Shown: piece after piece, positions 34,712-49,910 of the stretch
Layout: the number at the start of each line of letters is the position of its first letter
How positions within the stretch are numbered: the stretch's first letter is position 1
From: Bizionia argentinensis JUB59
Lineage (GTDB): Bacteria > Bacteroidota > Bacteroidia > Flavobacteriales > Flavobacteriaceae
Direction: 5' to 3'
NCBI RefSeq assembly: GCF_000224335.1
Contig: NZ_AFXZ01000038.1
Location: forward strand, 1-64,000
DNA length: 64,000 nt
Translations under genes and position numbers: made by a program
The notes under the pieces: generated by a model
The model's database searches: none
The model's input: only the letters and a program-made list of their open reading frames with translations
What the model was told of the DNA's origin: nothing

Positions 34712-35077
34712 TTAAATTACTTTGTAATTTATAGACAATTTTAATGCCACAATATCCGTAAACTTTGTGATATTTTTAACACGGAATCCTGTTTCTGTTT
34801 CTGAAATGTCCAGTGATAACTCTAGATCTGGTGTTTTTTCAGGGTTAATTATGGCCATAAACTTCACGTTACTAGCTGATGCCATAAAGAGTTTTTTTGA
34901 AAGTATTTGTTCCGAAAGCTCTTTAATAATCTGCATCATGCAAACACCTGGCGTTACTGGATTTCCTGGAAAATGACCTTTAAAAACGGCATGATCTTTA
35001 TTGATTTTGATATTGGCAACCGCTTTTCCATCGTCGTGTTCTAAGGTCTTTATGGTGTAAAAGTCTTTAATTAACAT
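34712..35077 (-). CDS. Hotdog-fold 3-hydroxyacyl-ACP dehydratase, His-only half site
   Basis: A 121-residue FabA/FabZ-like hotdog protein. It has the motif KGHFPGNPVTPGVCMMQ (residues 33-49) with catalytic His35, but the residue that should be the catalytic Glu or Asp is Gln49. In FabZ and FabA the active site pairs His from one subunit with the acid from the other. The two other hotdog proteins of the cluster (46952 and 47404) keep the Glu but lack the HFPG His. A mixed dimer is the simple inference. It corresponds to ApeI in position and type. Confidence 0.85.
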   Translation of the reverse strand: MLIKDFYTIKTLEHDDGKAVANIKINKDHAVFKGHFPGNPVTPGVCMMQIIKELSEQILSKKLFMASASNVKFMAIINPEKTPDLELSLDISETETGFRVKNITKFTDIVALKLSINYKVI

Positions 35078-35083
35078 GGCTAA

Positions 35084-35689
35084 TTATTTTTTTGTCAAGT
35101 TAAATTGATAATTGATACCCAATTGGAAAACAGTATTAAATTGATTTTGGGTTTCATATAATTCAGATTCGAAACTATTAAATGTCCCAGAATATACATC
35201 AATAAACCCACGTTTATATCGCGCTTCGAAAGATAGCCCATTTTTTAGCTCTAGCCCAAAACCAAAAGAAAAATTAAGGTCTACAAAAGTAGCATCATTT
35301 CCATGGTTATCACCTCTGTTTGCAAAACCAATTAGTGTATCGTCGATATCAAAATCAATTCCAGGTGTTACCGATAAATAGAAGCCAAGATCTGGCGCTA
35401 CAAAAAACTTATTGCTAACGGCAAGCGTAATATATTCGATATAAATCGTATTATTTCCCCTTGTTTTACCGCCTTGATTGGAATATCCTAATTCTGGCTG
35501 TAAGGCGTACAATTCAGAAAAACGAACCTGATAAATAAGACCTAAGTACAAATTGGTTTTAACATCCATATCAGCATTTGTTAAATTTGAAATATTTGCG
35601 CCCGCACGTAAACCGATGCCTTTTTTGTTTTGAGAAAAGGTTAAATTCATCACTAGTAAAAACAGTAAAGTGACTAGTAGATTTTTCAT
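35084..35689 (-). CDS. PorT-like outer-membrane beta-barrel protein
   Basis: A 201-residue protein with a signal peptide (about 1-20, NLTFSQ). Alternating amphipathic strands follow: GIGLRAGANISNLT, NLYLGLIYQVRF, ALQPELGYSNQGGK, FYLSVTPGIDFD, LNFSFGFGLEL, and a terminal FQLGINYQFNLTKK. This is the small PorT-type barrel common in Bacteroidota. It sits between the lipoprotein and the hotdog gene in the cluster, suggesting a part in placing the pigment in the outer membrane. That role is inference. Confidence 0.8.
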   Translation of the reverse strand: MKNLLVTLLFLLVMNLTFSQNKKGIGLRAGANISNLTNADMDVKTNLYLGLIYQVRFSELYALQPELGYSNQGGKTRGNNTIYIEYITLAVSNKFFVAPDLGFYLSVTPGIDFDIDDTLIGFANRGDNHGNDATFVDLNFSFGFGLELKNGLSFEARYKRGFIDVYSGTFNSFESELYETQNQFNTVFQLGINYQFNLTKK

Positions 35690-35695
35690 GAGAGT

Positions 35696-36301
35696 TTAAT
35701 ATATTGATTTAAGTGTAATTTCTAACTTAATGTTGCTGTGAATAATACTAATGTTGTGCGCAATATTATTACTAATATCTGAAAATAAAAACTGAACTTT
35801 TTCTTTTAGGCTACCAGTTCTAACAATTTTATTTAACTGTTTAGAAACGTAATAATAGTGTTTTTTATTAAGAATACTGGTCTGAAAGACTTGGTTATTC
35901 TCAATTGTAAAGCTTTTGTTTACCAATGAATTTTCCTGAACCAAAGCTGTAAAATCTCGTTTCAGGATATTAATGAGTAATTTTTTATCCAGTTGCTCTA
36001 AAATATAATTGACCTTAAAATCGGTTTTTGTAATAGAGAAGTCGAATAGCTTTTTGCCCATTTCCGAAGTGAAAACTACACGATGATTTCCTTGGTCAAT
36101 CTTTTTAACGATTAATAAGCCCCCAAAATGATTATCATAAACATCAATTGCTGCTTTATAAACGTAATCTTGATTTACATCTGAGAAATAAGAATTAGTA
36201 ATGGTGTTAAGTGTTGTGTTTTGAAGAATTAGTTCTTGTTTTTTGGGGTAAGAAGCACAATTAACAATAAGGAAAAAACAACTAATGATTAAATAACGCA
36301 T
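35696..36301 (-). CDS. Small lipoprotein, possibly ApeN/DUF3261-like
   Basis: A 201-residue protein with a lipobox (LIVNC, Cys15). The segment AAIDVYDNHFGGLLIVKKI followed by HRVVFTSEMGKKLFDF and a later LNKKHYYY resembles the DUF3261 lipoproteins of aryl polyene clusters (ApeN), but I judge this by eye. It overlaps the LolA-like gene downstream end by 20 bases. LolA-like carrier plus small lipoprotein is the usual pairing in these clusters, probably replicating the LolA/LolB step for the pigment. Confidence 0.7.
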   Translation of the reverse strand: MRYLIISCFFLIVNCASYPKKQELILQNTTLNTITNSYFSDVNQDYVYKAAIDVYDNHFGGLLIVKKIDQGNHRVVFTSEMGKKLFDFSITKTDFKVNYILEQLDKKLLINILKRDFTALVQENSLVNKSFTIENNQVFQTSILNKKHYYYVSKQLNKIVRTGSLKEKVQFLFSDISNNIAHNISIIHSNIKLEITLKSIY

Positions 36302-36899
36302 CGGAAACCGGGTTGTTTAAGACTTTATTATTAAAAATAATTTTAGTATAATCGCCAGAGGGCTCAATCATTTTTACAATTTCAACATCACCCTCAGCAT
36401 TAAAGGTTAAATGAAAAGCCGTAATAAATGCTGCTGACTTTTTATCTTTAGGCTTAAAATAAACCAAGCTGTTTTCACCCGATTTGTAATATTCTATATT
36501 GAATTCTTCCGCATCAAACATGTCACCTTTAACACTGTTTATAATAAGACTATTTAGCTGCTTAAAAAGTTTACTTGCACTCATATCAATGTTGCTTTTC
36601 TTGCCTTCATCATTAATATAAAGTTGGTCATCTTTAAAGATAACCGAATAAGTAAAAGGTTCTGTATATGACCATTTTATCAAGTCTGGGGCTTTAAAAT
36701 ATAAGTTGCCTTTGGTTATAATATCATTCGATAAAAAATCCATGTGTTTGTATTGCGTGAATTGGCTAGTAATAGTTTTTGTGGTTTTAGCTTGTTGCTT
36801 TACCAAATTTTTTAAAGTCAGTGCTTCTGCAGAATTCATGGGCTTTTGTGCCTGAATAGTTGATATAAAGATGAAACAAAATATAAAAATATTACGCAT
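36282..36899 (-). CDS. LolA-like outer-membrane lipoprotein carrier
   Basis: I start at the ATG at 36899 (205 residues); it overlaps the deacetylase stop (ATGCGTAA) and gives a clean signal peptide (MRNIFIFCFIFISTIQAQ). An upstream start would fall inside that gene. The body shows the LolA pattern: TSQFTQYKHMDFLSNDIITKG, GNLYFKAPDLIKWSYTEPF, then DDQLYIND and a late VEIVKMIEPSGDYTKIIFNN. LolA-type proteins carry hydrophobic molecules across the periplasm. Cluster location suggests it carries the pigment or a lipidated intermediate, as proposed for ApeL. Confidence 0.85.
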   Translation of the reverse strand: MRNIFIFCFIFISTIQAQKPMNSAEALTLKNLVKQQAKTTKTITSQFTQYKHMDFLSNDIITKGNLYFKAPDLIKWSYTEPFTYSVIFKDDQLYINDEGKKSNIDMSASKLFKQLNSLIINSVKGDMFDAEEFNIEYYKSGENSLVYFKPKDKKSAAFITAFHLTFNAEGDVEIVKMIEPSGDYTKIIFNNKVLNNPVSDALFNH

Positions 36900-37668
36900 A
36901 TGCTTTAATTTTAAATAAGGTGTCAATCGCAACGGATTGAAATTTATTATCATGTAAAAATAGCAATAACTGTTCCAAAACCCTAACTGATTTATCACTA
37001 GTGTCGTGCAGTAAAATTATATCGCCTGAATTTATATTTTTGGTTACACGTTTCAAGATACTTAAATCAGATAAATTAGTGGTGTCTAACGAACGCTTGT
37101 TCCAACCAATAGTGGTTAGATTGAGATTATTAACCGCCTGGCGAATCCTTGGATTAGTAACCCCGAAAGCCGGACGAAATAGTTTAGGTTGTAACCCGCT
37201 AAACTGTTTTATAATAGTATTGGTTTTTAATAATTCAGCTTGTACCTTTTCCGTTTTAAAAAATCCAAAAGTGTTGGCGTGGGAGTAGGTGTGGTTACCA
37301 ATGGTATGTCCTTCAGCCAGAATTTGCTTAAATAATTTGGGATGTGCTTCAATGTGTTTCCCTATACAGAAAAATGTTGCTTTGGCTTTATATTGCTTAA
37401 GTAACGCTAAAACTTGTGGCGTAAATTCTGGATTTGGGCCATCATCAAAAGTAATGGCTATATTATTTATGTTTGCGTTTTTATTCGCATTTAAAATTTT
37501 AATATGATAATGCCAACTTACTAGCCCAGAGCCGAATGCTGTTAGCGTAAACCAACTGAAAAACAATAGAACAAACCACCAAATGCTAATAGGATTTATT
37601 AGAAAAGCGATTAATAAACCTAAAAAGATAACAATTGATATTAGATTTACCGATTTAAAATTTAACAT
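36892..37668 (-). CDS. Polysaccharide deacetylase (NodB) family protein
   Basis: A 258-residue protein with two N-terminal membrane helices (about 8-30 and 30-50). A NodB homology domain follows with TFDDGPNPEFTPQVL (Asp-Asp metal motif near residue 75), the second motif HTIGNHTYSHAN (H-T-x-S-H) and a late LHDTS. It should remove an N-acetyl group from a sugar or amide, facing the periplasm. With the glycosyltransferase this suggests sugar decoration in the cluster. Substrate unknown. It overlaps the KS-like gene stop by seven bases (ATGTTAA). Confidence 0.85.
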   Translation of the reverse strand: MLNFKSVNLISIVIFLGLLIAFLINPISIWWFVLLFFSWFTLTAFGSGLVSWHYHIKILNANKNANINNIAITFDDGPNPEFTPQVLALLKQYKAKATFFCIGKHIEAHPKLFKQILAEGHTIGNHTYSHANTFGFFKTEKVQAELLKTNTIIKQFSGLQPKLFRPAFGVTNPRIRQAVNNLNLTTIGWNKRSLDTTNLSDLSILKRVTKNINSGDIILLHDTSDKSVRVLEQLLLFLHDNKFQSVAIDTLFKIKAYA

Positions 37669-38726
37669 TGGCGAAGTAATGTGAAACTATGATTTTCTCC
37701 ACGATACTGGTTATATAAAAGTATGGTTTTATACTGAGAAGGTATTATAGCATTCAACTGAAAGGTTTCAGGCACCGTTTTTGTCTTTAAAATATTGGCG
37801 GCTAATAACAAGCCAAATGAGGAAGCGGTATAACATTCACCAATCCAAGGTTTATAAACCATTTGTTGGGTATTTTTAAAGTCGCCTGAAGTTAATGTAT
37901 TATAATATATATCGAATTCCTCATCCCCGTTATTGCCTAAAATGAGTGTATCTATTTCAGATACATTGAGGTTGTGTTCTTTTAAAAATTCACGTGCTTT
38001 ATCTGTAATTGAATCTACTTCTAAAGTATTATAAATTTCTAATCCGTCTACCACGGCCAAAGTAGAATCTTGTTTTTCATTCGAAACGACGAAAAAATTG
38101 GCTCCCTCACCAAAAATCGCACCTTTGGTATTTGTCTCTAATAATTCAGCACTTTCTACCGGTTCTTTTTTAATGTGGTTTATAGTTTTGTTGAGTAATA
38201 CGGTATGTTTAGCCAATTCATCAACACCTCCAATTAAGATGTTTTTAGCTTCGTTTAATTCCAATTGTAGTTTAGCATCTAATAGTGCAGATTCAAATGA
38301 ATTACTCCCATGAACATATGTGAAATTATAACCTTTACATTGAATTTCCAACGCAATTTGTCCACCAACCGTGTTGTGTGTGGATTGTATAAATGGTGTT
38401 GGTGTTAAATATTGTTCGTCATTATCAATAATGGCACTTAAAAACTTTTCAGAATCATGTAAACAGCCCATTCCTGTTCCTGTTATAATGGCATCTACGT
38501 TATTTAAATTAGCTTTTTGTAAGGCTAATTTAGAAGCAACAATTCCCATTTTAACACCTTTTGCCATACGTCGGGCAGCAGCTGGAGGAATAAAATCTTT
38601 ATAAATTGGATTTATCGCCGGAATGGTTGTGTCATTATAAGAAATGATATCCTTTAGAAAACTTGAATCATATTCTGTGTTTTGAGCAGAAACGGAACCA
38701 AAACTATTTATATAAACCTTTTCCAT
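37662..38726 (-). CDS. Ketosynthase-like protein without active-site Cys (chain-length-factor type)
   Basis: I start at the ATG at 38726, which shares its A with the stop of the neighbouring ketosynthase (TAATG); this gives 354 residues. The thiolase fold is recognisable (AARRMAKGVKMGIVASKLAL, IITGTGMGCLHDSEKF, TPFIQSTHNTVGGQIAL), but the nucleophile region reads TYVHGSNSFESA, so Cys is replaced (Ser141 or Gly140). The NAHGT and GHT histidine motifs are also absent. It should not condense by itself. Placed directly after an intact ketosynthase, it looks like the CLF-like partner of a KS:CLF pair. Confidence 0.82.
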   Translation of the reverse strand: MEKVYINSFGSVSAQNTEYDSSFLKDIISYNDTTIPAINPIYKDFIPPAAARRMAKGVKMGIVASKLALQKANLNNVDAIITGTGMGCLHDSEKFLSAIIDNDEQYLTPTPFIQSTHNTVGGQIALEIQCKGYNFTYVHGSNSFESALLDAKLQLELNEAKNILIGGVDELAKHTVLLNKTINHIKKEPVESAELLETNTKGAIFGEGANFFVVSNEKQDSTLAVVDGLEIYNTLEVDSITDKAREFLKEHNLNVSEIDTLILGNNGDEEFDIYYNTLTSGDFKNTQQMVYKPWIGECYTASSFGLLLAANILKTKTVPETFQLNAIIPSQYKTILLYNQYRGENHSFTLLRQC

Positions 38727-39928
38727 TACTCTTTTTTTGAAAATATAACAGTTGAACAATTTCCGCCAAATCCAAATGAATTAGACATGACCGTTTTAAG
38801 GGCTTTTTCTTTTAATTTTAATTGGGGTGTTATTGAAAATTCCTGCATTTGTGTTTTAAAGTTCAAATTCGGGAAAATAACATTATTTTGAAGCGCCAAA
38901 ATAGCATAAACTGCTTCTATACCACCAGCAGCAGCCAATGTGTGTCCGGTATAAGCTTTGGTGGAGCTAAATTCTGGAGCTTTCTCGCCAAAAACACGAA
39001 TAATGGCACGGCCTTCCGATAAATCGTTATTGCCGGTTGCGGTTCCGTGAGCATTTATATAATCTATATCCTCTGGTTTATAATTGGCTATTTCAAGCGC
39101 TTTTTCCATAGCTAAAGTGGCGCCGTCACCATTTTCAGATGAAGCAGTCTGATGAAACGCATCGTTAGCATTTCCGTAGCCTTTTACATAAGCTAAAACG
39201 GTTTTGTTTTCTGCTTTTACAACGTGATCTGATTCTAAAACCAAATAAGCGGCAGCTTCACCTAAATTTAACCCTTTACGATTGTCATCAAAAGGTGCAT
39301 TGTAGGTATCTGATAAAATCATTAGCGTTTTAAAACCGTTGATGGTAAATTTGGACATACAATCCGTGCCGCCAACAACCACACGATCCAGTTTTCCAGC
39401 TTTAATTAAGCGTGCGCCGAGCATAATAGCATTGGCAGCGGATGAACAAGCTGTACTAATTGTTGTTACCAAGCTTTCTTCAATACCCAATTGTTGGGCT
39501 ATTTTTTGTGTTGAGTCGCCAGCATTATGACCAGCAATATATTTTTGTACGTTTTCGTCTTCTAAATATTGGTAATAATACTTTTCGGTCATATCCATAC
39601 CACCAACGCTGGTTGCAGAAATTAACCCTGTTTTATAGGCTGAAATATCTGTTATTCCCGCATGTTTAACGGCTTCTTTTGCTGCTATTGCACCAAGAAA
39701 CGCTGTTCGCGAGTAATTGTTTTCTGGAGTTAAATTTAAAAGTGATTCTAATTCTTGATTGGTATAAGCAATTTCACCAACCATAATATCATTTTCATGA
39801 ATGGTATCAATTTTAGAAACACGGGAAATCCCTATTCTTTCGTTAATAAGTGCGTGATAATTTTCTGCAACATTGTTTCCAATGGCGGAAATTATTCCCA
39901 TTCCAGTAATTGCAATACCTTTACTCAT
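38726..39928 (-). CDS. FabF-type beta-ketoacyl-ACP synthase
   Basis: A 400-residue KAS II-type enzyme with a complete Cys-His-His triad: Cys161 in STACSSAAN, His294 in NAHGTATGN and His329 in YTGHTLAAAGG. It should extend ACP-bound chains with malonyl units. Its partner is probably the Cys-less ketosynthase-like protein translated directly after it. It is one of three Cys-containing KAS I/II-type enzymes in the cluster. The gap to the upstream ACP gene contains an interspersed palindrome. Confidence 0.92.
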   Translation of the reverse strand: MSKGIAITGMGIISAIGNNVAENYHALINERIGISRVSKIDTIHENDIMVGEIAYTNQELESLLNLTPENNYSRTAFLGAIAAKEAVKHAGITDISAYKTGLISATSVGGMDMTEKYYYQYLEDENVQKYIAGHNAGDSTQKIAQQLGIEESLVTTISTACSSAANAIMLGARLIKAGKLDRVVVGGTDCMSKFTINGFKTLMILSDTYNAPFDDNRKGLNLGEAAAYLVLESDHVVKAENKTVLAYVKGYGNANDAFHQTASSENGDGATLAMEKALEIANYKPEDIDYINAHGTATGNNDLSEGRAIIRVFGEKAPEFSSTKAYTGHTLAAAGGIEAVYAILALQNNVIFPNLNFKTQMQEFSITPQLKLKEKALKTVMSNSFGFGGNCSTVIFSKKE

Positions 39929-40000
39929 ACTTACTCTTTGTGCCTGCTAAATGAATGATCGGTAAATTAATAATTTTACGGATACCCTCTAGCTATGAGG

Positions 40001-40018
40001 TTCCTGCTTACGTAGGAA
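40001..40018. repeat. Interspersed palindromic repeat inside the pigment operon
   Basis: TTCCT (40001-40005) and AGGAA (40014-40018) bound the repeat. On the minus strand it contains TACGTAAGCAGGAA, also found on the plus strand at 17031-17044. It lies in the 94-base gap between an ACP gene and a ketosynthase gene. Confidence 0.6.
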
Positions 40019-40022
40019 TTTA

Positions 40023-40280
40023 TTATTTAGATCTGTGTTCTGTAATGTATGTAGCCATGGTTTTAACCGACTCAAAAATGTGTTTACCTTCTTTTGGGTC
40101 GGTTAATTTAATACCATAGTTTTTATCTAGCATGACAATCAGCTCTAAAGCATCAATAGAATCCAATCCTAAACCATCGCCGAAAAGCATATCATCATCG
40201 CCAATATCTGTAATAGTCATATCTTCAAGATTTAATTGTTCAATAATATTTTCTTTTAATTCTTGTTTTAGTGCTTCCAT
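40023..40280 (-). CDS. Acyl carrier protein
   Basis: An 85-residue acidic helical ACP. The phosphopantetheine attachment Ser is Ser41 in GLGLDSIDALEL. It starts one base after the stop of the truncated ketosynthase-like gene. It is one of two ACPs in the cluster; with neighbouring ketosynthase genes it probably carries the growing aryl polyene chain. The loading 4'-phosphopantetheinyl transferase is not evident in the window. Confidence 0.92.
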   Translation of the reverse strand: MEALKQELKENIIEQLNLEDMTITDIGDDDMLFGDGLGLDSIDALELIVMLDKNYGIKLTDPKEGKHIFESVKTMATYITEHRSK

Positions 40281-40281
40281 A

Positions 40282-40899
40282 TTATGTGTTATATAATGTT
40301 TTTATATGTTTTTTATTGTGTTTTATTTTTCCGTTTTTAGATACTAAATATAGAAATGCTTCGTAATGGTTTTCATCAAAATCAACCCAACCACAAAGTA
40401 CTTGTTCTGCTTTATTTAAATCCAATAAACTATTGGTGTAAGTAGCTAAAAGGTCAGCATTTAAGCCGTCAAATATAAAAAAACTATTTTCGGAAAACAG
40501 CTTATATTTAATACTTATCTCCCCAAGGCAAATGTTTGGTAATGTATATACAAAAACCGCTGGGCTCGGGAAATAATTACTTTTATCTTGAATAGCTTCC
40601 TGATGTAAACGGTCAGTATCTAAACTGGACGCTCTGTTAGAAAATACCAAAGCAATATTATTCTCTATTTCGGTATTTAAGGCTTCATTTTTAAGCAGAA
40701 TATCAGCGGCTAAAAATGCCAGTTTACTCAAGTTATCCATTTTAAAAAATTTGGGATACTTGGTTTGTTCTGCTTTATATACGCTTTTAATAAAGTCCGT
40801 AAACCCTTCAGAATCATCATGAAATACAACATTCCCATTTAAAGAAACCGTTTGTTTCTTAATTTGGCAATAGGACGTTATGTAGTAATTGGGCTTCAT
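40282..40899 (-). CDS. Truncated ketosynthase-like protein (ApeC-like)
   Basis: A 205-residue protein that resembles the N-terminal half of a ketosynthase: IALVFSNRASSLDTDRLHQEAI, then SPAVFVYTLPNICLGEISIKYKLF. The following segment, where the nucleophile would be, reads SENSFFIFDGLN and has no Cys. About half of a normal ketosynthase is absent. Such short Cys-less proteins are typical of aryl polyene and flexirubin clusters and are thought to pair with an active ketosynthase. The frame is intact and tightly packed between the ACP and methyltransferase genes, so it is not a random pseudogene. Confidence 0.72.
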   Translation of the reverse strand: MKPNYYITSYCQIKKQTVSLNGNVVFHDDSEGFTDFIKSVYKAEQTKYPKFFKMDNLSKLAFLAADILLKNEALNTEIENNIALVFSNRASSLDTDRLHQEAIQDKSNYFPSPAVFVYTLPNICLGEISIKYKLFSENSFFIFDGLNADLLATYTNSLLDLNKAEQVLCGWVDFDENHYEAFLYLVSKNGKIKHNKKHIKTLYNT

Positions 40900-40901
40900 A
40901 A

Positions 40902-41963
40902 TTACTTTTTCTTACAAGCAAAAATAGTATGATATTCGCCAATAGCGCGGTCTTCTATTAATTCTAATCCGGCTTGATCTATCAATTTTATTAAAACGGT
41001 TGAAGGATACATTTTACTATTTCCATTGGCCATTACCGTAAAATAAAGGGATGTTGCTTCCAATATAAATTTGGCATTATCAAAACGCTGTCTATCGGTA
41101 AACGTTTCCATAATAAGTACTTCGCCATTATCATTGACTGCTGCTGCACAGGCTTTCAAAATAACCAAAATTTCTTCTTCAGAAAAGCAATCTAAAAATT
41201 GACTCATCCAAATGGCATCTGCACCAACTGGTAATTGCGGATTTTCCGACAACCAATCTATTTTATGATGAGTTACACGATCTTTAAACCCTGCAAGTTC
41301 TATGTTTTTCAATGCGATTTGTAATTGCCCTGGTAAATCAACCATTTTTATAGAAACAGAGTCGCTGTATTTGTTTCCGGCAATGGTGAACTTCCCAGTA
41401 TTGGCACCCACATCATAAATGGATTTTGGGTTATTTCTGAAAACAAATTCTAAAGCTTCTTGAAATACTTCATCAGAATAATGATGATCAAATTCAAACC
41501 ACGCTTTTTGTACTTTTGGCTGTAAAACCGAAAGACCTTGATAAATAGTTTCCCAATCTCCAAGCTCTTTTAATCCAGCAGGTTTTCCAGTTTCAATGGC
41601 TTCTGTTAAATGAAATAAGCCTTTGTAACAAACCTCTTGAGTGAAATTAATGTTGACATCAACTGTTCTATCAAAAGCTAAAAAATAACCTGTTGTAGTC
41701 AGTTCAAAACATTTATTTTTGTCTTTGTCAACGATGTTATAGCTTTCAGCAATTTCTAATAAAACGCCAACGCCATAAGTGCTTATTTCTAATTCTTTTG
41801 AAATACCTTCTAATGAAATACCGCCTTTTTTGCGATGTTGAAAAATTAAGTCAAAAATGCCTAATTTTCTTAATGCAACTACCGCTTGAAAAACAAAAGG
41901 AGCAAAGGCAATTTTTTCGGCTTCTTGAACAGCATCAATAGCCCTAATAGATTTTTTTGACAT
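40902..41963 (-). CDS. SAM-dependent methyltransferase
   Basis: A 353-residue class I methyltransferase of the small-molecule O-methyltransferase type. An N-terminal winged-helix dimerisation part (LRKLGIFDLIFQHRKKGGISLEGISKEL) is followed by SAM motif I SIYDVGANTGKF near residue 180, then VDLPGQL and ADAIWMSQFLDCFSEEEILVIL. It could methylate a hydroxyl or carbon of the aryl head or resorcinol. Flexirubin-type aryl heads are often C-methylated. The sequence does not fix the acceptor. Confidence 0.85.
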   Translation of the reverse strand: MSKKSIRAIDAVQEAEKIAFAPFVFQAVVALRKLGIFDLIFQHRKKGGISLEGISKELEISTYGVGVLLEIAESYNIVDKDKNKCFELTTTGYFLAFDRTVDVNINFTQEVCYKGLFHLTEAIETGKPAGLKELGDWETIYQGLSVLQPKVQKAWFEFDHHYSDEVFQEALEFVFRNNPKSIYDVGANTGKFTIAGNKYSDSVSIKMVDLPGQLQIALKNIELAGFKDRVTHHKIDWLSENPQLPVGADAIWMSQFLDCFSEEEILVILKACAAAVNDNGEVLIMETFTDRQRFDNAKFILEATSLYFTVMANGNSKMYPSTVLIKLIDQAGLELIEDRAIGEYHTIFACKKK

Positions 41964-41966
41964 AAT

Positions 41967-43118
41967 TTATAGTGTATTTTTTTTAAAGATAACTGCCGTG
42001 TTGCAGCCTCCAAAACCAGATGCGGTTTTAAGAAACGTGTGTAACGATTTATTTTTTTGTGTGCTTTTTATAATATTTAAAGGTTGGGAAACACCTAATG
42101 TTTCAAAGCCTTTACTAGTATACAATGTGTTATTAAAAAGGCTATGCATGCCTATAATAGTTTCCAACAGACCTGATGCACCAAGCGTATGGCCAAAATA
42201 GCCTTTTAAACTATTTAATGGTACGTTTTGCAATTCAGAACGATTGAAAGCAATTGCTTCCATTTCGTCATTAAAGGCTGTGGCGGTTCCGTGCGCTGAA
42301 ATATAATCGATTTCCGAAGGTTTCAATTTCGCTTGTTTTAGTGCTAATTGAATGCTTCTATATAAACCTTCGCCCGTTCTCGAAGGTCCTGAAATATGGT
42401 TGGCGTCGTTACATGAACTCTCGCCTGCTATTTCTACGGATTCTGGAGCTAAATGATTCGTGCTGTTTGTAACTAATGCAGTTGCCGAAACTTCTCCAAT
42501 ATTAATACCGGTTCTGTTTTCATCATAAGGTTTGCAAAGTTCGCCGCTCAACGCTTGAAAAGAGTTGAAACCTGATAAAATAAACGGACTCACAACATCG
42601 CCACTAACTACAAAAACATGATCGTAAGTGTCTTGTTGGATAAATCGTTTGGCAACAGCGATTGCTAAAATACCAGAAACACAAGCATTGGATATTATAA
42701 TAGCATCATTTTTAAAGTCGAAAAAATCACGAATAGTATTTCCTAATGTTGCTAAATAAGCGCGTTCTGGTGGAAATGGATTTTCACTATCCAAAGCATC
42801 TACATTGCCTTTTGTAGTTGATATAATAAGTCCGACGCGATCATTGAATTCTATTTTAGAGTCTGAAATAACCGAATGTAATGATGTAATCATCATTTTT
42901 TCCAATCTCGTAAAGGCTCCTTTTGGATCTAATTTTTGAAATTCTTCTTCTAGTTTTTCAGAACTTATTAAGGCGGAATAAAATGGATTTGGGAGAATAG
43001 ACTCATCATGAATTCTCTCTAACCCCGAGATTTCATTCTGAATATTTTCCACAACAAATTCGCTTGTAAAACCTAAAGCAGAAACAATATTATTATAAGA
43101 AACATAAACTTTATTCAT
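41967..43118 (-). CDS. Beta-ketoacyl-ACP synthase
   Basis: A 383-residue KAS I/II-type enzyme with Cys146 (SNACVSGIL), His276 (SAHGTATAFND) and His310 (GYFGHTLGASG), so it is catalytically complete. It is shorter than FabF and begins MNKVYVSYNNIVSALGF. Its ATG overlaps the thioesterase stop by eight bases (ATGAATAA), in line with translational coupling. Together with the other synthases it builds the polyene or the resorcinol precursor. Which chain it serves is not decided by sequence. Confidence 0.9.
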   Translation of the reverse strand: MNKVYVSYNNIVSALGFTSEFVVENIQNEISGLERIHDESILPNPFYSALISSEKLEEEFQKLDPKGAFTRLEKMMITSLHSVISDSKIEFNDRVGLIISTTKGNVDALDSENPFPPERAYLATLGNTIRDFFDFKNDAIIISNACVSGILAIAVAKRFIQQDTYDHVFVVSGDVVSPFILSGFNSFQALSGELCKPYDENRTGINIGEVSATALVTNSTNHLAPESVEIAGESSCNDANHISGPSRTGEGLYRSIQLALKQAKLKPSEIDYISAHGTATAFNDEMEAIAFNRSELQNVPLNSLKGYFGHTLGASGLLETIIGMHSLFNNTLYTSKGFETLGVSQPLNIIKSTQKNKSLHTFLKTASGFGGCNTAVIFKKNTL

Positions 43119-43563
43119 CTAATAAACCTACTTTTTGTTTCCAAGCTTTAAAAAAAGGTGGGATATTTAAAAATAAGTCACCCTCTCCAATTTTATCGAC
43201 AAATACTTGTGTGGTTTCTCCGGTGCAAACCAAGTCCTGATTTTGATTGTAAATTTCGTAACGAAACACCATTTTAGCGGCTGGAGTATCCATATAAATA
43301 GTTTTTACGGTGGCAATATCGCCATAGCGCAATGGCAGTTTATGATCCGTACTGGATTTTACAATAGGTGTGGCAAAACCGAATGTTTTTTGGTCTAAAT
43401 AGGAAATTCCATGTTTTCTTCCGAAGGCCTCGCGACCATCTTCAAAATATTGAATATAGTTGCCATGCCAAACAATTCCTAATGGATCTGTTTCTACAAA
43501 ACGCACACGAACTTCGCTAGTATGAATAATTTCTTTGTATTTAGACGGCATTCTTTTTTTCAT
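43111..43563 (-). CDS. 4HBT-type acyl thioesterase
   Basis: A 150-residue hotdog thioesterase of the YbgC / 4-hydroxybenzoyl-CoA type. The active motif is RVRFVETDPLGIVWHGNYIQYFEDGREAF, with the typical Asp and HGNY. The start may be the ATG at 43563 or the one at 43551; both overlap the ABC permease end. It corresponds to ApeK in type. It could release the finished chain or edit stalled ACP intermediates. Confidence 0.88.
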   Translation of the reverse strand: MKKRMPSKYKEIIHTSEVRVRFVETDPLGIVWHGNYIQYFEDGREAFGRKHGISYLDQKTFGFATPIVKSSTDHKLPLRYGDIATVKTIYMDTPAAKMVFRYEIYNQNQDLVCTGETTQVFVDKIGEGDLFLNIPPFFKAWKQKVGLLDE

Positions 43564-44809
43564 TATAAATAATTGCTATTAAAGTTGTTACTATAAAAAA
43601 CAAGAACAACATACTAATTTCAGGTAATATATCTGTAAATGACCCATTTCGTAAAAACACATCGTAAAACCCATTTAATCCCCAATTCATTGGTGAAATA
43701 TGTGATAAGGTTTGCATTACTTTTGGCATTACAAAAACAGGAACCCAAACGCCACCTAATGCGGCAAGGATAACGACAAAAGTAGCACCAAATGGAGCCG
43801 ACTGTTCTTGAGTTTTTGCTATAGTTCCTAATAATAACCCTAATCCAATTGCTGCTAATCCTGCAAAGGTAGCGACTACAAATAGTAAAGGAATTCTCCC
43901 TGAAATATCTAATGTTGGTAAACCAATTGCTGGAAATAAGAAAACACCTACGGATAGCATCAGTACAAACTGAATTAAGCAAACGACTAAATAAACTAAT
44001 GTTTTTCCACCCAAAACGGTGGCATAAGAAACGGGGTTTGTTCGTAGACGTACAAATGTACCTTGACTTTTTTCTTTAACAATATTAATGGATAACGGCA
44101 CAATAATAAAGAAAATGGCAAAAAGTGTCCAAGCTGGTACATTGTGTTGTACTGAATTTGGAATCATTTCTTTGTCATTGTCTGTCGGTAAAATCTCTTT
44201 AAAGGTTATAAAAGTGTCTGTTTCAAAAATAACCTCACTTGGATCGTCTGAAATTTGTTCTTGAAAGGCCTTATAAATAGATTGTGTTTCAATTTTTGAA
44301 ATCATTTTATCAATCCCATTTTTAACAGAGCTTTTAAAGGTGAGCTGGGTGGCAGGATCAAAATACAGTGTAACCTCTTTACCTTCTATTTCTGGTTTTT
44401 CGGTTGATTGGGTAGTGTCTTCTAAACCAAATTGAGCAATAATACCATCGACGTTTTGGCTAACTTTTTGTTCCAAACTAGTCGATAAATTTTTGGGAAT
44501 AATAATAGCCAATTGATATTTTCCTTTAAAAACTAAATCGCGAGCCGTGGTTTCATCTGTTTGGGTAATAACTTCAAAGGAACCTGATTCCTGGAGACCT
44601 TTTAAAATAACTTCAGAAACACTTCCATGATCGTAATCCACAACTAAAATAGGGATTTGACTATCGGTAACCGTTTTAAAAGTGCTGTCCTGAATGAGGG
44701 TTATGGTTATAATTAATATCAATGGCATGACAAAAAGTATGGCAATACCACCAAAATCTCGAATGAGTAATAAAAACTCCTTGTATGTAGAAGCCCAAAG
44801 TTTATGCAT
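43541..44809 (-). CDS. ABC-2 type transporter permease
   Basis: I start at the ATG at 44809, overlapping the ATPase stop (ATGCATAA); a GTG at 44815 is an alternative. About 422 residues. An N-terminal helix near residue 20-40 is followed by a large extracytoplasmic domain (about 50-230). Five helices follow from about 235 (WTLFAIFFIIVPLSINIVKEKSQGTFVRLR is the ABC-2 signature) to the end. It pairs with the ATPase encoded upstream. An exporter inside the cluster suggests movement of the pigment or a lipid precursor. Confidence 0.9.
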   Translation of the reverse strand: MHKLWASTYKEFLLLIRDFGGIAILFVMPLILIITITLIQDSTFKTVTDSQIPILVVDYDHGSVSEVILKGLQESGSFEVITQTDETTARDLVFKGKYQLAIIIPKNLSTSLEQKVSQNVDGIIAQFGLEDTTQSTEKPEIEGKEVTLYFDPATQLTFKSSVKNGIDKMISKIETQSIYKAFQEQISDDPSEVIFETDTFITFKEILPTDNDKEMIPNSVQHNVPAWTLFAIFFIIVPLSINIVKEKSQGTFVRLRTNPVSYATVLGGKTLVYLVVCLIQFVLMLSVGVFLFPAIGLPTLDISGRIPLLFVVATFAGLAAIGLGLLLGTIAKTQEQSAPFGATFVVILAALGGVWVPVFVMPKVMQTLSHISPMNWGLNGFYDVFLRNGSFTDILPEISMLFLFFIVTTLIAIIYNEKKNAV

Positions 44810-45545
44810 GATCACGTAGGGCTTTTCCGGTTATATCTATAAATACATCTTCGAGGTTGTGTGCTCCAGAATGTTGCGCAATAAGTGTTTCAGGTTTTCC
44901 TGTTACCACTAATTTTCCATGATCAATAATAGCAACACGTGTGCAAAATGTTTCGGCTTCATTAAGGTGGTGGGAGGTATAAATAATGGTCGTTCCTTGT
45001 TTGTTAAGTTCCTGTAGAAACTCGATAATAACGTTTTTGGATTGTACATCTACGCCAACTGTTGGTTCATCTAGGAAAAGTATTTTGGGATTATGCAGTA
45101 CGCTTGCAATTAAATTAATCCTACGTTTCATACCTCCAGAAAAAGTATCTATTTTTTTATGAGCAAAGGCTAACAAACCTAAATGTTCTAATGCTGTATT
45201 GATTTTATCCTCTAAAATTTTTCCTTTTAAACCGTACATACTACCAAAGTATTTAAGGTTTTCAAAAGCCGTTAACGACGGGTATAAAGCATATTCTTGA
45301 GGAACAATCCCGATAATTTGCTTCAGCTGATTTTTATTTTTTTGATAGGTTAAGCCCGCAATGGAAAAGTTGCCAGAGGTTGGTTTTATTAACGAGCATA
45401 AAATGGAAATTAAAGTCGTTTTTCCAGCGCCGTTAGGTCCTAATAAACCAAAAATTTCTTTTTCAGCAATGGACAAGTCAAGGTTAGACAACGAAAAATT
45501 ATCGGCACCTTTATATTTTTTGGATATTTGCTGAATATCAATCAC
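44802..45545 (-). CDS. ABC transporter ATP-binding protein
   Basis: A 247-residue ATPase. Walker A is GLLGPNGAGKTTLI (about residues 34-47), the Q-loop is GIVPQEYALYPSLTAFENL, the signature is FSGGMKRRINL, Walker B is ILFLDEPTVGVD, and the switch His is in TSHHLNEAE. It is of the ABCA/drug-exporter type that pairs with ABC-2 permeases. It lies directly upstream of its permease and one base after the BtrH-like gene start region. Confidence 0.93.
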   Translation of the reverse strand: MIDIQQISKKYKGADNFSLSNLDLSIAEKEIFGLLGPNGAGKTTLISILCSLIKPTSGNFSIAGLTYQKNKNQLKQIIGIVPQEYALYPSLTAFENLKYFGSMYGLKGKILEDKINTALEHLGLLAFAHKKIDTFSGGMKRRINLIASVLHNPKILFLDEPTVGVDVQSKNVIIEFLQELNKQGTTIIYTSHHLNEAETFCTRVAIIDHGKLVVTGKPETLIAQHSGAHNLEDVFIDITGKALRDHA

Positions 45546-46544
45546 TTATTTTATAGCTTTTTTTAATGATTTAAAGAATACTTTTTCTTTATCTGCAATA
45601 ACTTCTAATTGGCTGGCTACATTGTTGTAGGCATCTGTTTTAGCACTTCGATTTTTATAAATCCGGGAAGCATCTAAAGCGAAATCTCGCCATAAATCGC
45701 CAATAATAGTCATTTCTTTTGATAATTCAGCTAATTTCTGGTTATTCAATACACCGCTTGATTCTTGTAAAAATGCAGCAAAAATATAGCGAAATCCACC
45801 ACCGCCAGTTCCAATTTCTTCTTGCATACGCACCACTTGCCCTAAATAGTGATTCGCTTTTTTAACACCGTGTTTTTTTGGCCACTTTCGGATTAATTTT
45901 GCTACATGACGCATTCCTTTTACGCCTAAAACTGGCATAGGCGCTAACATATCGCGGCACGTGTGTTTAATACCTTTTACAATGGCTTTTTCAATATCCA
46001 ATGATTCTGGAAAAGCAATTGGGTAATACATATGGCCTTTAGGCGCAAAAGGACCTTTGGCAAAACGAACTCTTTCAAGCGCTTTAGCTGTTAACGTCGT
46101 TACCGTTTCCATAACGGGATCACTTATTAAATATGTATTGTCTTCTTTTCCGTAAACGATGAGGTTATGTGCATTAAAATGAAAGCGGTATTCATCAGGG
46201 AAATATGATAAATTATAAACGCCTACTTGTAAACCTACTGGATTATCGTTTTCTAAATTTGCATCTAAACGCGCTTTAGCGTCCTCAGGGTTTTTAAACT
46301 TTTCACGCTTAATATCAATTCCAACACGTTTTGCAAAACGCTTAAATATAAAACCAGGCATAGCTCGGTAAGTTAGAGCAGGTGCGTGGTTGACTTTTAA
46401 AAATGGTATATAACAAAATAGTAAGCCAGAACCAATACCAAAGGCCATGGGTTCGCTGATTTCGAAGCCGTGATGCTTCATTAAATTGGATATCACACCG
46501 TTTTCGCAATGAGCTGTTTGATGATGTGTGAAATTAATTTCCAT
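45546..46544 (-). CDS. BtrH N-terminal domain protein, candidate acyl-ACP transferase
   Basis: A 332-residue protein. Residues 1-145 have a papain-like layout as in BtrH and C39 proteases: Cys13 (HCENGVISNLM), His126 (FNAHNLIVYG) and Asp142 (LISDPV). The C-terminal half is helical with MLAPMPVLGVKGMRHVAKLIRKWPKK. BtrH moves an acyl group from a carrier protein to an aminoglycoside, so this is a good candidate for joining the ACP-bound polyene to the resorcinol as an ester. That is inference. It overlaps the upstream 136-residue gene by 11 bases. Confidence 0.8.
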   Translation of the reverse strand: MEINFTHHQTAHCENGVISNLMKHHGFEISEPMAFGIGSGLLFCYIPFLKVNHAPALTYRAMPGFIFKRFAKRVGIDIKREKFKNPEDAKARLDANLENDNPVGLQVGVYNLSYFPDEYRFHFNAHNLIVYGKEDNTYLISDPVMETVTTLTAKALERVRFAKGPFAPKGHMYYPIAFPESLDIEKAIVKGIKHTCRDMLAPMPVLGVKGMRHVAKLIRKWPKKHGVKKANHYLGQVVRMQEEIGTGGGGFRYIFAAFLQESSGVLNNQKLAELSKEMTIIGDLWRDFALDASRIYKNRSAKTDAYNNVASQLEVIADKEKVFFKSLKKAIK

Positions 46545-46944
46545 GCTTGGTAATATCTTTTAATTGTTCCAAAGAAATATCAAAAGCATCTGCATACTTT
46601 TGAAGTGTTTTTCGTGGAAGGCGTTTGAAAATGGAAGGCTTAAAATTCCGTTTTACTTGACAAGACCACATATTCACATAACTAGCTAATATAGAAGGAT
46701 CCATTTTATGGTATTCCATATAATATTCAATTGGGCTTGTTTCGTTATTTAAAACACGTTTTCTTGCAGCCTCAATCCGTTCGTTTATCTCTTCAATGGC
46801 TTGACTTAAGGCAATCGTTTTCGGTTTCCAACCCGAACTATTAACAGTCGTATAGCTGCCATTTTCATCAACAGCGTAACATAACTCTTTCATTTTTGCT
46901 GTTTCCAAATTACTGGTGTCTTGTGGAACTTCGTCTTTTTTCAT
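46534..46944 (-). CDS. Small hypothetical protein of the pigment cluster
   Basis: A 136-residue soluble protein, charged and helical, with YAVDENGSYTTVNSSGWKPKTIALSQAIEEINERIEAAR and a C-terminal RLPRKTLQKYADAFDISLEQL. I recall such a gene beside the BtrH-like gene in other flavobacterial pigment clusters, but no function. The 11-base overlap with the BtrH-like gene suggests coupled translation and perhaps a complex. Confidence 0.75.
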   Translation of the reverse strand: MKKDEVPQDTSNLETAKMKELCYAVDENGSYTTVNSSGWKPKTIALSQAIEEINERIEAARKRVLNNETSPIEYYMEYHKMDPSILASYVNMWSCQVKRNFKPSIFKRLPRKTLQKYADAFDISLEQLKDITKHGN

Positions 46945-46951
46945 GCTGAAG

Positions 46952-47404
46952 TTATTTAAGTTCTTGAATAACTAAATTAAGCTCACAAGATAGTAATTCT
47001 ACATCTTCCATGGTAATGATACACGTTAAGGTACAAATGCTGTATTCGTCGGTATCAAAACGTGATTGCAAGGTGGCATTTGTTTTTATTTTACTACCAA
47101 CTTTCGGGCAAAAATGAAGCGTTACTTTTTTTATAGCACTAATAAATCCAATCAATTTTGTGCCTTCACCTTCCAGATCATCTTCGTTAAAAAAACTCTT
47201 TCCCACAATAGATGAACAGGTTTGAGCAGCATTTTCTACCAAACCAACTTCATTAAAAAAGCCGTTATCATTAAAAATACAATCTGGTTTTATAGTAAAG
47301 GAAGTGGTAACGTGAGAATCGTCAATACTCAATACATCATCTACCATTAAAAAAGGCGGACGATGTGGTAAAAATTTAGCGATATCAAGGTGACTAAAAT
47401 CCAT
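46952..47404 (-). CDS. Hotdog dehydratase-like protein, Glu-only half site (ApeP-type) A
   Basis: A 150-residue FabZ-like hotdog protein. It starts with the FabZ-like FLPHRPPFLMVDDVL. The second helix is GLVENAAQTCSS with Glu57 at the catalytic acid position. The HFPG motif that should carry His is replaced by NDNGFFNEVGLVEN. So the site is the reverse of the 34712 hotdog protein, which has His but no acid. I infer a heterodimeric dehydratase. Its stop is directly before the next gene in the cluster. Confidence 0.82.
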   Translation of the reverse strand: MDFSHLDIAKFLPHRPPFLMVDDVLSIDDSHVTTSFTIKPDCIFNDNGFFNEVGLVENAAQTCSSIVGKSFFNEDDLEGEGTKLIGFISAIKKVTLHFCPKVGSKIKTNATLQSRFDTDEYSICTLTCIITMEDVELLSCELNLVIQELK

Positions 47405-47835
47405 TAGCTAGCTATAACAGTTTTCATTTCGCCTTTGGCTATTTCTTGTTGTGCTTCATTAAAGACCTGAATCTCGACCATTGTTACACCCATAAATTCA
47501 TGGAGAATGGTAACATGGGTTGAAATGATTTCATGTAGTTTAGGAAGTTTTTCAATTTTTATCGACTTTATCGACCCAATATAACCGACTGGTGGTGCTT
47601 CATTTTTTAAATAAAAATCGTATCCCGTATGTAAAGCAACGGATTGTGCCATGTTTTCTACCAATCCAGCTTCTGTTAAAACCGTATTTTCGACAAAAAT
47701 ATTAGTTTCTAAAATTTTAAACTTTGAAACTAATTGTTCTGCTGAAAATTTTACCAAAGTATCCACCATAACAAACGGTGTTTTTTGAGGAATTAAATGT
47801 GTGATATCGGTTATAGGTAGTGTCTGTGTGGTCAT
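47404..47835 (-). CDS. Hotdog dehydratase-like protein, Glu-only half site (ApeP-type) B
   Basis: A 143-residue hotdog protein, paralogue of the next gene downstream. It has IPQKTPFVMVDTLV at the start and Glu60 in EAGLVENMAQSVALHTG. Like its paralogue it has no HFPG His. Its stop and the paralogue ATG share one base. Having two Glu-only partners for one His-only protein may give separate dehydratases for the polyene and the resorcinol branches; this is a hypothesis. Confidence 0.8.
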   Translation of the reverse strand: MTTQTLPITDITHLIPQKTPFVMVDTLVKFSAEQLVSKFKILETNIFVENTVLTEAGLVENMAQSVALHTGYDFYLKNEAPPVGYIGSIKSIKIEKLPKLHEIISTHVTILHEFMGVTMVEIQVFNEAQQEIAKGEMKTVIAS

Positions 47836-47839
47836 TTTT

Positions 47840-48973
47840 TTAACAAACAGTTAAAAGTGAGTAGGCATATGAGAAACGCGAGCTTTCAGGAACAGATAAT
47901 AATATTTTATCGCCTTTTTTTAATTTTCCTGATTTTGCAAGTTCTTCAACCATTAAGTAAATAGAGGCTGATCCTACATTTCCTACTTTACTTAAATTCA
48001 TGAACCATTTTTCCCAAGGAATTTCAACATCGTTTTCTACCATTTCCTGGTAAAGTCTGTCTTTGAAATAGTCGGAAGAAATATGTGGTAAATAATGATC
48101 TATATCGCTTGGTTTTAAACCGTGCTTGTTAATAGCTTTCTTTAAACTGTCCACCCCTTTTTTAAGAATGTTGGCACTTAATAATTTTACATCTTGTTTC
48201 AATGCAAACAGTGACTTTTCACTCCATTCGTTTGTTTTATATTCACTCCATGGCTTTAAAAAACCATTTTCTAACTTATCACCGCCGGCGTACATACAAA
48301 CTTCTAATTCGTGTGCATACGAGTAGCCTTCCATCCATTCTATACGTAATGGCATATCGCCTTTTGGTTTGTCTTCTAATAAAAAGGCTCCCGCACCATC
48401 TGAAAGCATCCAGCGTAAAAAATCTTTGTTAAAAGCCAAGATTGGATTGTCTTCTAAAGCTTCCAATGATTTTAATTCATCTTCAAAAATATGTCCTTTC
48501 ATCCAAGTGGATAAACGTTCGGATCCTGTTGTAACCGCATTTTTTGTTTGCCCAGATTTTATAGACATAAAACCATATTTTAGGGCATTCATACCTGAAC
48601 AACAAGCACCAGAAGGGGAGTTTATTTCTAAATTATCGGCGTCTAAAAATCCATGAACCATAGCAGCATGCGATGGTAATATTTGGTCTGGACTCGTAGT
48701 TCCACATGATAATAATTCAATATCTGAAGCTTTAAAGTTTTCGTCTAACAAATTGCCAATAGCTTCTTTAACTAACTGTGCGTTGTTATGTGTTACATTT
48801 CCTTCCTCATCTAATGCGTAATAACGTGTTTTAATTTTATTATTTCGCAATACAATACGACGTCCTTTAGACGATTTCCCGTTAATAACGCCTAGTTTTT
48901 CTTCCATTTCATCATTGCTAATGGGACGATTTGGTAAAAACTTTGCTATTCTTGTAATATAAACTTCCTTCAT
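47840..48973 (-). CDS. darB: DarB-type 3-oxoacyl-ACP synthase III (dialkylresorcinol)
   Basis: A 377-residue KAS III-like enzyme with nucleophile Cys124 in SGACCSGMNALKYG, His in HYLPHISSDYF and Asn in KVGNVGSASIYL. The long start region (RRIVLRNNKIKTRYYA) and the DarA gene right upstream identify it as DarB. DarB makes the carbon-carbon bond that leads to the cyclohexanedione precursor of dialkylresorcinols. It is one base away from darA. Confidence 0.92.
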   Translation of the reverse strand: MKEVYITRIAKFLPNRPISNDEMEEKLGVINGKSSKGRRIVLRNNKIKTRYYALDEEGNVTHNNAQLVKEAIGNLLDENFKASDIELLSCGTTSPDQILPSHAAMVHGFLDADNLEINSPSGACCSGMNALKYGFMSIKSGQTKNAVTTGSERLSTWMKGHIFEDELKSLEALEDNPILAFNKDFLRWMLSDGAGAFLLEDKPKGDMPLRIEWMEGYSYAHELEVCMYAGGDKLENGFLKPWSEYKTNEWSEKSLFALKQDVKLLSANILKKGVDSLKKAINKHGLKPSDIDHYLPHISSDYFKDRLYQEMVENDVEIPWEKWFMNLSKVGNVGSASIYLMVEELAKSGKLKKGDKILLSVPESSRFSYAYSLLTVC

Positions 48974-48974
48974 T

Positions 48975-49910
48975 TTAAAGTTCCTTTTCTTTTATTAAAA
49001 CAGATTGGTAATATACTTTTTCTTTTTTTATTTGGCTATAAAAAGGTAAATATGTCAATAGAAATAAGATGAAAACTATTGGCGAAAGTAGCCAAATTGC
49101 CGTTACTAAATAAACATTAAACATTTTAATTAAAGTACGTCTTTTAGCAGTGTTTTTCTCACTTTTTTTGGTGATAAAAGTAGACCATTTTGTGAATAGC
49201 ATATTGGCTCGCTTGTCTGTGGTTACTAAAAACGATTTCACCTTTACGGCATTTTTTTCTAACAAGTTGTCCTGTAGTTTCTTATAGTCGTTTTCATGTA
49301 GGTGTTTAGAAATAATAGTTCCGAACTTGGACGAATCATCTATATCTTCTTGAGAAACCCCAGGTTTCGGGAAAATTCCTAAATAGCGTGTTTTAATACC
49401 TGTAAACATCCAATGTACGATGGTTATAACACTTACATGATTAATATTTCTGTCAACCAAAACAATGTTTCCTACTAAATTGGCATTCAGGTTTTTAAGC
49501 TTTCGTTTTAGTTTTTCTTGAGCCATAATCCACATGTTTCTACAACCAATAATAGTGATAACGGGTGTGTTTTCTAGAAGTTTTTTAGCTTCAGGAGTAG
49601 CCAGAAAAGAGGTGGTTGGCAAAGATGCCGTTAAATACCAAACTGAATAACCAAATAGAATTAAATCGTATTTTTTGTTTAAAATAGATTCAGAAATGGG
49701 TTTGATTTTTTGTGGTTCTTCACGAAAAGTTTCTGGAAAAACACCAAAGAAGTCTTTCTTACTTTTCCATGGAAACGGAAAAGGCTCTTCCATTTCAATA
49801 TTTAAATAGGTAAAAGTTGTTAGATCGTTTTGCATGGTTGAAACGATATTTCTTACAATTTCGGTTAATTGTCCCGATTGTGAATAATGTATAACTAATA
49901 CCTGTTTCAT
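48975..49910 (-). CDS. darA: DarA-type dialkylresorcinol condensing/aromatising enzyme
   Basis: A 311-residue protein starting with a flavodoxin-like segment (VLVIHYSQSGQLTEIVRNI), then FPFPWKSKKDFFGVFPETF and SVWYLTASLPTTSFLA. It ends with a membrane helix (AIWLLSPIVFILFLLTYLPF). This is the DarA layout of flexirubin and dialkylresorcinol clusters. DarA is described as the enzyme that aromatises the DarB product; the flavodoxin part suggests FMN. Adjacent darB supports the call. Confidence 0.93.
   Translation of the reverse strand: MKQVLVIHYSQSGQLTEIVRNIVSTMQNDLTTFTYLNIEMEEPFPFPWKSKKDFFGVFPETFREEPQKIKPISESILNKKYDLILFGYSVWYLTASLPTTSFLATPEAKKLLENTPVITIIGCRNMWIMAQEKLKRKLKNLNANLVGNIVLVDRNINHVSVITIVHWMFTGIKTRYLGIFPKPGVSQEDIDDSSKFGTIISKHLHENDYKKLQDNLLEKNAVKVKSFLVTTDKRANMLFTKWSTFITKKSEKNTAKRRTLIKMFNVYLVTAIWLLSPIVFILFLLTYLPFYSQIKKEKVYYQSVLIKEKEL

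Follow-up and report, generated by a model that had tools for sequence, protein, structure and literature searches.

The 64,000-nucleotide stretch analysed here (the window) comprises positions 1–64,000 of contig NZ_AFXZ01000038.1 of Bizionia argentinensis JUB59 (genome G000) and carries a flexirubin gene cluster, identified by matches above cut-off to the NCBIfam equivalogs FlxA, FlxB, DarG, DarH and LolA2 and to the DarB model. Within this cluster are three genes, named here by their first coordinate, for small hotdog proteins in which the catalytic His and Glu of the FabZ dehydratases are divided between different chains:

34712..35077, minus strand: His-only hotdog subunit, ApeI-like, 121 amino acids; His35 in HFPG, Gln49 at the acid position (His+14)
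46952..47404, minus strand: second Glu-only hotdog subunit, ApeP-like (copy A), 150 amino acids; Glu57 in GLVENAAQ, no HFPG
47404..47835, minus strand: first Glu-only hotdog subunit, ApeP-like (copy B), 143 amino acids; Glu60 in GLVENMAQ, no HFPG; acid-subunit profile A1

A preliminary description of this DNA had listed these open reading frames (ORFs) and residues, all of which were confirmed when read from the translations. It had also proposed that the half sites are complementary and call for a mixed dimer, an idea to which residue conservation and the solved relative ApeI:ApeP lend support; and that one His partner has two possible acid partners, in agreement with a search of the genome, in which 34712 was the only His-only subunit found, together with two acid-only subunits. 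The gene order is darB, 47404, 46952, darG with gaps of 4, −1 and 7 bases, the 47404 stop and the 46952 start sharing one base (junction TAATG). The 34712 gene lies on the same strand about 12 kb from this run.

A split catalytic pair and a candidate mixed dimer

Sequence, fold models and analogy together indicate that 34712, 46952 and 47404 are very probably the flexirubin counterpart of ApeI:ApeP, in which a His subunit would pair with an acid subunit to make one active site. In FabZ and FabA the active site is built across the dimer. In the arrangement that we infer, 34712 would form a hotdog heterodimer with 47404 or with its paralogue 46952; the complete site would place His35 of 34712 opposite the partner's Glu (Glu60 in 47404, Glu57 in 46952), and at the second site Gln49 would face no His, leaving it dead. 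The complete site would dehydrate 3-hydroxyacyl-acyl carrier protein (ACP) during aryl polyene chain growth, and homodimers of any of the three proteins would be inactive, each being without one of the two residues. 46952 would be a lineage-specific paralogue that has kept its catalytic Glu under purifying selection and that, in the likeliest reading, would also pair with 34712 to give another heterodimer, differing in chain length or carrier preference (compare HadA and HadC with HadB).

Relatives were drawn from three samples: 247 genomes of the phylum, the DarB-matching part of the class (325; 46 new genomes) and 326 genomes of the order. With each genome counted once these gave 116 acid subunits and 91 His subunits, and the split was read over 96 genomes with one or both subunits examined. 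Family alignments showed no variation at H35 and Q49 (20/20), at E60 (22/22) or at E57 (39/39). Across a wider set the catalytic Glu was present in 78/78 acid subunits and the His in 61/61 His subunits, the residue at +14 in the latter being Gln in 53, Arg in three, Glu in three, Lys in one and His in one. Thirty further order-sample loci had Glu in 30/30 copies A and 30/30 copies B, 11 of these acid-subunit genomes being repeats so that 38 of the acid sequences were new; 30 more loci supplied 30 new His subunits, every one with the His and with Gln at +14. In total, Glu was found in 116/116 acid subunits and His in 91/91 His subunits, the acid position of the latter being Gln in 83/91 and non-acidic in 88/91. 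When the 78 acid subunits were aligned with four FabZ sequences, the His column held Gly in 44, Asn in 19, Asp in eight and Gln in two, with single occurrences of others. Both residues were kept in 22/22 FabZ control domains; these were fetched by family and by the same homology searches with a motif that required His but not Glu, and many of the rows are close relatives. Given these counts by comparison with the FabZ control, the split of the catalytic pair between the families is not due to chance; and each family keeps one residue and loses the other, as predicted if just one of the two sites of a dimer is complete.

The two kinds of subunit also travelled together, occurring in the same 20/20 genomes of the phylum sample, in 39/42 DarB-bearing genomes of the class sample (the acid subunit being partial in one) and in 66/66 Flavobacteriales. 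No His subunit was found in G294 and G417 in the class-sample search.

Structure models covered two of the three chains, 34712 and 46952. The AlphaFold single-chain model of 34712 had a mean predicted local distance difference test score (pLDDT) of 93.7, and its best structural match in the second-look list was 6qsr_A (Z 16.4, root-mean-square deviation (rmsd) 1.9, 111 aligned), followed by 3esi_A, a solved chain of the ApeI kind (Z 15.9, rmsd 2.1, 113 aligned). FabZ 8ayd scored Z 15.7, which ties with both within 1 Z unit, so the fold of this model is one common to ApeI and FabZ and is not specific to ApeI; neither ApeI chain was among the best 50 Foldseek matches listed for the model. At the sequence level, 34712 scored 39.4 bits against PF07977 (cut-off 23). 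The best Protein Data Bank (PDB) sequence match of copy A was 6qsr_B (E 0.0024) and its single-chain model reached pLDDT 87.5.

Three other classifications of these genes were considered and rejected. They are not pseudogenes: the ORFs are intact, and the median ratios of non-synonymous to synonymous substitution (dN/dS) over seven genomes of one genus were about 0.09 for copy A, 0.09 for copy B and 0.07 for the His subunit, values that are rough as dS exceeds 1. They are not FabZ, both by their residues, of which each protein has just one of the catalytic two, and by their scores against TIGR01750 and NF000582 (cut-offs 155.15 and 113 bits), which were 34.1 and 32.8 for 34712, 25.8 and 27.1 for 46952, and 20.7 and 25.2 for 47404. 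Nor are they hydratase-2 or HadB proteins, as the single-chain Asp and His motif of that family is unmatched in all three.

Several observations weigh against a dimer of the ApeI:ApeP kind. The scores of 34712 against the ApeI-like family PF22818 (24.4 bits, E 3.6e-5; cut-off 28.5) and of 46952 against the ApeP-like family PF22817 (14.4 bits; cut-off 27) fell short, and 47404 had no match to PF22817 up to E 1; as these Pfam cut-offs are missed, we call the proteins flexirubin counterparts and not ApeI and ApeP. The copy A model has the FabZ fold and matches plain FabZ chains (Z 20.1) no less well than 6qsr_B (18.1). The aligned His column is free of His in 77/78 acid subunits but is occupied by one in the remaining sequence, and the His subunits of G360, G387 and G520, which belong to one family, have Glu at the acid position and, judged by these residues, could act as FabZ-like homodimers. 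The Gln that takes the acid position is itself strongly conserved, more so than mere loss would lead one to expect, and may matter for the structure of the dead site. Finally, the His gene adjoins the acid gene in none of the 41 genomes outside Flavobacteriales in which both were placed, 16 of which have the two on one contig with a smallest gap of 4151 bases. The closest pair seen, in G802 (C17:168163-169039), is 130 bases apart; DarB was not found in that genome.

Dehydratases whose catalytic pair is split over two genes are easily mistaken for dead copies.

The surrounding flexirubin cluster

The remaining assigned genes of the window are as follows:

36282..36998, minus strand: lolA2 of flexirubin clusters (NF053544, 234.1 bits; cut-off 125)
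40902..41963, minus strand: FlxJ-like methyltransferase (NF053543, 430 bits, below the cut-off of 560)
43111..43563, minus strand: fourth hotdog protein, YbgC/FadM-type thioesterase (TIGR00051, 76.5 bits, cut-off 68.7; PF13279, 54.6 bits, cut-off 25.5)
45546..46544, minus strand: darH (NF053550, 513.9 bits; cut-off 300)
46534..46944, minus strand: darG (NF053545, 200.3 bits; cut-off 170)
47840..48973, minus strand: darB, dialkylresorcinol ketosynthase (NF053539, 675.3 bits; cut-off 550)
48975..49910, minus strand: flavodoxin-like protein (by eye) adjoining darB; a similar ORF lies beside DarB in G017 (by eye)
52288..53019, minus strand: flxB ketoreductase (NF053542, 418.2 bits; cut-off 340)
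54205..55731, minus strand: flxA tyrosine ammonia-lyase (NF053541, 888.3 bits; cut-off 700)

The protein encoded at 48975..49910 had no NCBIfam match at 1e-10; from its position it is probably DarA. The hotdog protein at 43111 was considered as a fourth half site and rejected, being a YbgC/FadM-type thioesterase by both models and no dehydratase. Positions 37662-38759 encode a ketosynthase-like protein without a recognisable active-site Cys motif, and positions 40282-40899 a protein of 205 amino acids, likewise without such a motif, with a weak FabF match only (E 0.047); both are possible chain-length-factor-like parts.

A second small polyketide-like cluster lies past the window end (G000:C33:67566-72702; locus L004:5567-10703), with a ketosynthase, a FabZ-like protein with His and Glu, an enoyl reductase-like short-chain dehydrogenase/reductase and a DpgA-like ketosynthase (183.9 bits; cut-off 425), as well as a methyltransferase and a phosphopantetheinyl transferase recognised by eye only. 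A third FabA-family gene on the same contig (C33:69692-70141) was examined as an extra His-only partner and ruled out, as it has both His and Glu.

The second acid subunit and its association with DarB

In the order sample the acid subunit was present in 66 of the 326 genomes (E 1e-13), 61 with two and five with one, each of the 66 also having a single His subunit. Typing by profile identified the second copy as copy A in 35 of the 61 (16 + 19); in the other 26 it was counted only. DarB occurred in 61/61 two-copy Flavobacteriales (16 from the phylum sample and 45, one of them broken, from the order sample) by comparison with 2/5 single-copy genomes (G629 and G723); it was not found in the single-copy G118, G802 and G684 of the order sample. 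The association of two copies with DarB gave p 2.2e-4 by Fisher's exact test, which ignores the kinship of the genomes. Outside Flavobacteriales, 42 of 45 DarB-bearing genomes had one acid subunit, one had two (G267), one had a fragment (G290) and one had none (G477); G290, whose partial acid subunit lies at a contig end, and G477, which is 70% complete, stand within the 45 and were not counted as single-copy.

DarB was counted as present in G404, where it is split over contig ends, and in G605, where a stop divides it in two. Frame length (about 470 amino acids) served to exclude LpxC-FabZ matches. Left out of the DarB count were G219, with a weak match, and G257, G274, G414 and G456, whose DarB-like frames of 617-635 amino acids score below the cut-off. 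Such DarB-like proteins (425-444 bits; frames of 616-635 amino acids, some 240 longer than DarB) were seen at G182:C12:543156, G257:C15:120692, G267:C8:2631, G274:C103:10580, G414:C40:9032 and G456:C32:50872, and neither a His nor an acid subunit was found in G274, G414 and G456. In G605 (C1:3280892-3282020) the two pieces of DarB are separated by an internal TGA, and the neighbouring dehydratase subunits are free of stops.

In a tree of the 78 acid subunits, copy A (16 rows) formed one clade (100/100) on a stem of 1.46 changes per column, and copy B grouped with G118 and with one of the two G267 sequences (G267a). Topology tests rejected neither a joint clade of A and B (approximately unbiased test, p-AU 0.187) nor one of A with G267b (p-AU 0.349). 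The tree is compatible with one duplication as the origin of both copies and does not date it.

Copy A keeps its Glu in every sequence read; most likely it would be a working second acid subunit that joins 34712 in a heterodimer of its own. A possible, if on balance doubtful, extension is that in Flavobacteriales the His subunit is common to two swappable half-site dehydratases, with 34712:47404 serving the polyene, 34712:46952 acting, in connection with DarB, on an alkyl enoyl-ACP or on a second chain length, and the partner choosing the substrate. Should the two acid subunits indeed select substrates, they would be a clean natural test of how a hotdog dimer can hold on to one half site and swap the other.

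The preliminary description had gone further and suggested that these pairs could define two dehydratases, one per branch. As a general rule this is not supported, 42/45 DarB genomes outside the order having one acid subunit; it may yet apply within Flavobacteriales, where the second acid subunit tracks DarB. Under such a division one acid subunit would serve the polyene and the other the dialkylresorcinol, making 2-enoyl-ACP for DarB, which takes an enoyl partner. We regard it as unlikely. The 61/61 against 2/5 count speaks for it, subject to the neglect of kinship noted above, and so does the position of the acid gene, which is within 250 bases of darB in 29/43 genomes outside the order (for G350, G372 and G399, which have two DarB genes, distances were taken to the one closer to the acid subunit). 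By the same measure the His gene is near darB in 0/41 of these genomes, the two sharing a contig in 12 of them. Even as the only copy, then, the acid subunit has some tie to DarB, which may be one of function or of operon history. Against the division, G629 and G723 inside the order also have DarB and just one acid subunit. A region of 19 kb around DarB was checked in three genomes, and in two of them, G017 and G238, the acid, His and FabZ profiles had no match at E 0.01. The third, G099, which has one acid subunit, favours a dehydratase for the DarB branch: some 2.5 kb from DarB it has a FabZ-like ORF with His and Glu (C44:190960-191442; L203:961-1443), similar to the FabZ-like gene past the window end (it reads HFVGNPVTPGVIITE where the latter reads HFKNNPVTPGVILTE), and from these residues a whole FabZ could serve the DarB branch in that genome. 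On the opposing side, darB and darA of Chitinophaga pinensis are reported to suffice for dialkylresorcinol in a heterologous host (PMC3992019).

It is rather unlikely, too, that 47404 is the sole catalytic partner and 46952 a paralogue with a structural or regulatory role, in a complex with 47404 or part of a mixed oligomer, with its Glu kept for folding or by descent. The one-base overlap of the two genes in the window, the close placement of both copies, inside a single locus of some 3.4 kb, in 30/30 typed loci and in 16 genomes from other searches, and the long stem of copy A would all fit such a role, as would the sufficiency of one acid subunit in most DarB genomes outside the order. A copy free of catalysis would be expected to lose its Glu, however, whereas Glu57 is invariant in copy A (16/16, and 30/30 including the 11 repeats) and its dN/dS is as low as that of copy B. 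Very improbable is the view that the proteins are homodimers, active or moonlighting, that rely on other residues, or that they pair with the ordinary FabZ proteins of the genome. The genome does have two FabZ domains with His and Glu, and B-type subunits often have a His beside the Glu (GLIEHMAQ) and at ALHTGY; but this extra His is not fixed, 47404 reading GLVENMAQ and G057 ALFTGY, and the co-occurrence described above is with the His-only subunit.

Comparison with known dehydratases

The proteins share with FabZ and FabA the hotdog fold, the positions of the HFPG His and of the acid at +14, and a site that would be built across the dimer. They differ from FabZ in that the latter has both residues in each subunit, as in the 22 control domains, and in their scores, which are far below the FabZ cut-offs.

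FlxF and FlxS are named as dehydratases of the Chitinophaga pinensis flexirubin cluster in the excerpt available of PMC3992019, which names two dehydratase genes, by comparison with three here, and says nothing of half sites. From gene order, they are likely one acid and one His subunit, and a split site would be a defined reason for single-protein assays of FlxF or FlxS homologues to fail. We found no literature that joins flexirubin with a heterodimer in searches mostly without subscription papers, and flexirubin with FabZ returned only other subjects by title.

The nearest precedent for the sharing of one subunit between two alternative partners is in the mycobacterial type II fatty acid synthase (FAS-II), where, according to PMC7005898, HadB forms with HadA or HadC two heterodimeric dehydratases for early and late elongation. 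That text describes HadB with a hydratase-2 motif, that is, with Asp and His in one chain, in contrast to the residues on different subunits here.

The mixed-dimer idea is itself not new, as a one-site heterodimer is already in print for ApeI:ApeP: PMC8041823 describes it as a heterodimeric dehydratase with one site from the aryl polyene clusters of Acinetobacter baumannii, and PDB entry 6QSR bears the title 'The Dehydratase Heterocomplex ApeI:P from Xenorhabdus doucetiae'. The likeness lies in two different hotdog subunits, with the His on the ApeI side and the Glu on the ApeP side, and in the same kind of pathway; Escherichia coli ApeP, which reads LPGWFALELMAQ, is without HFPG, and the acid subunits follow this pattern, the Glu being kept in 78/78 and HFPG lost. 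34712 has the HF-type His of the ApeI pattern but not its Asp at +14, which is Gln49. E. coli ApeI and 6qsr_A keep that Asp, so that both residues are in ApeI, unlike the Bacteroidota subunits with their Gln in 83/91. Among 77 loci related to E. coli ApeI (nearly all Enterobacterales, with seven Pseudoalteromonas and one titled Chryseobacterium) the +14 residue was Asp in 76/77, a figure that leans upwards as one of the six search patterns contains this Asp, and Glu in 1/77. The locus titled Chryseobacterium sp. 18061 (L217, CACSKA010000004.1) encodes an ApeI that shares 75% identity with the E. coli protein and is unlike the Flavobacteriales His subunits examined; it is likely a case of contamination or mislabelling. 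A further difference is that the sequences described here are below both Pfam cut-offs. The departures from ApeI:ApeP are that the Bacteroidota His subunit has lost its own acid and that Flavobacteriales usually have a second Glu protein, the latter being the new element.

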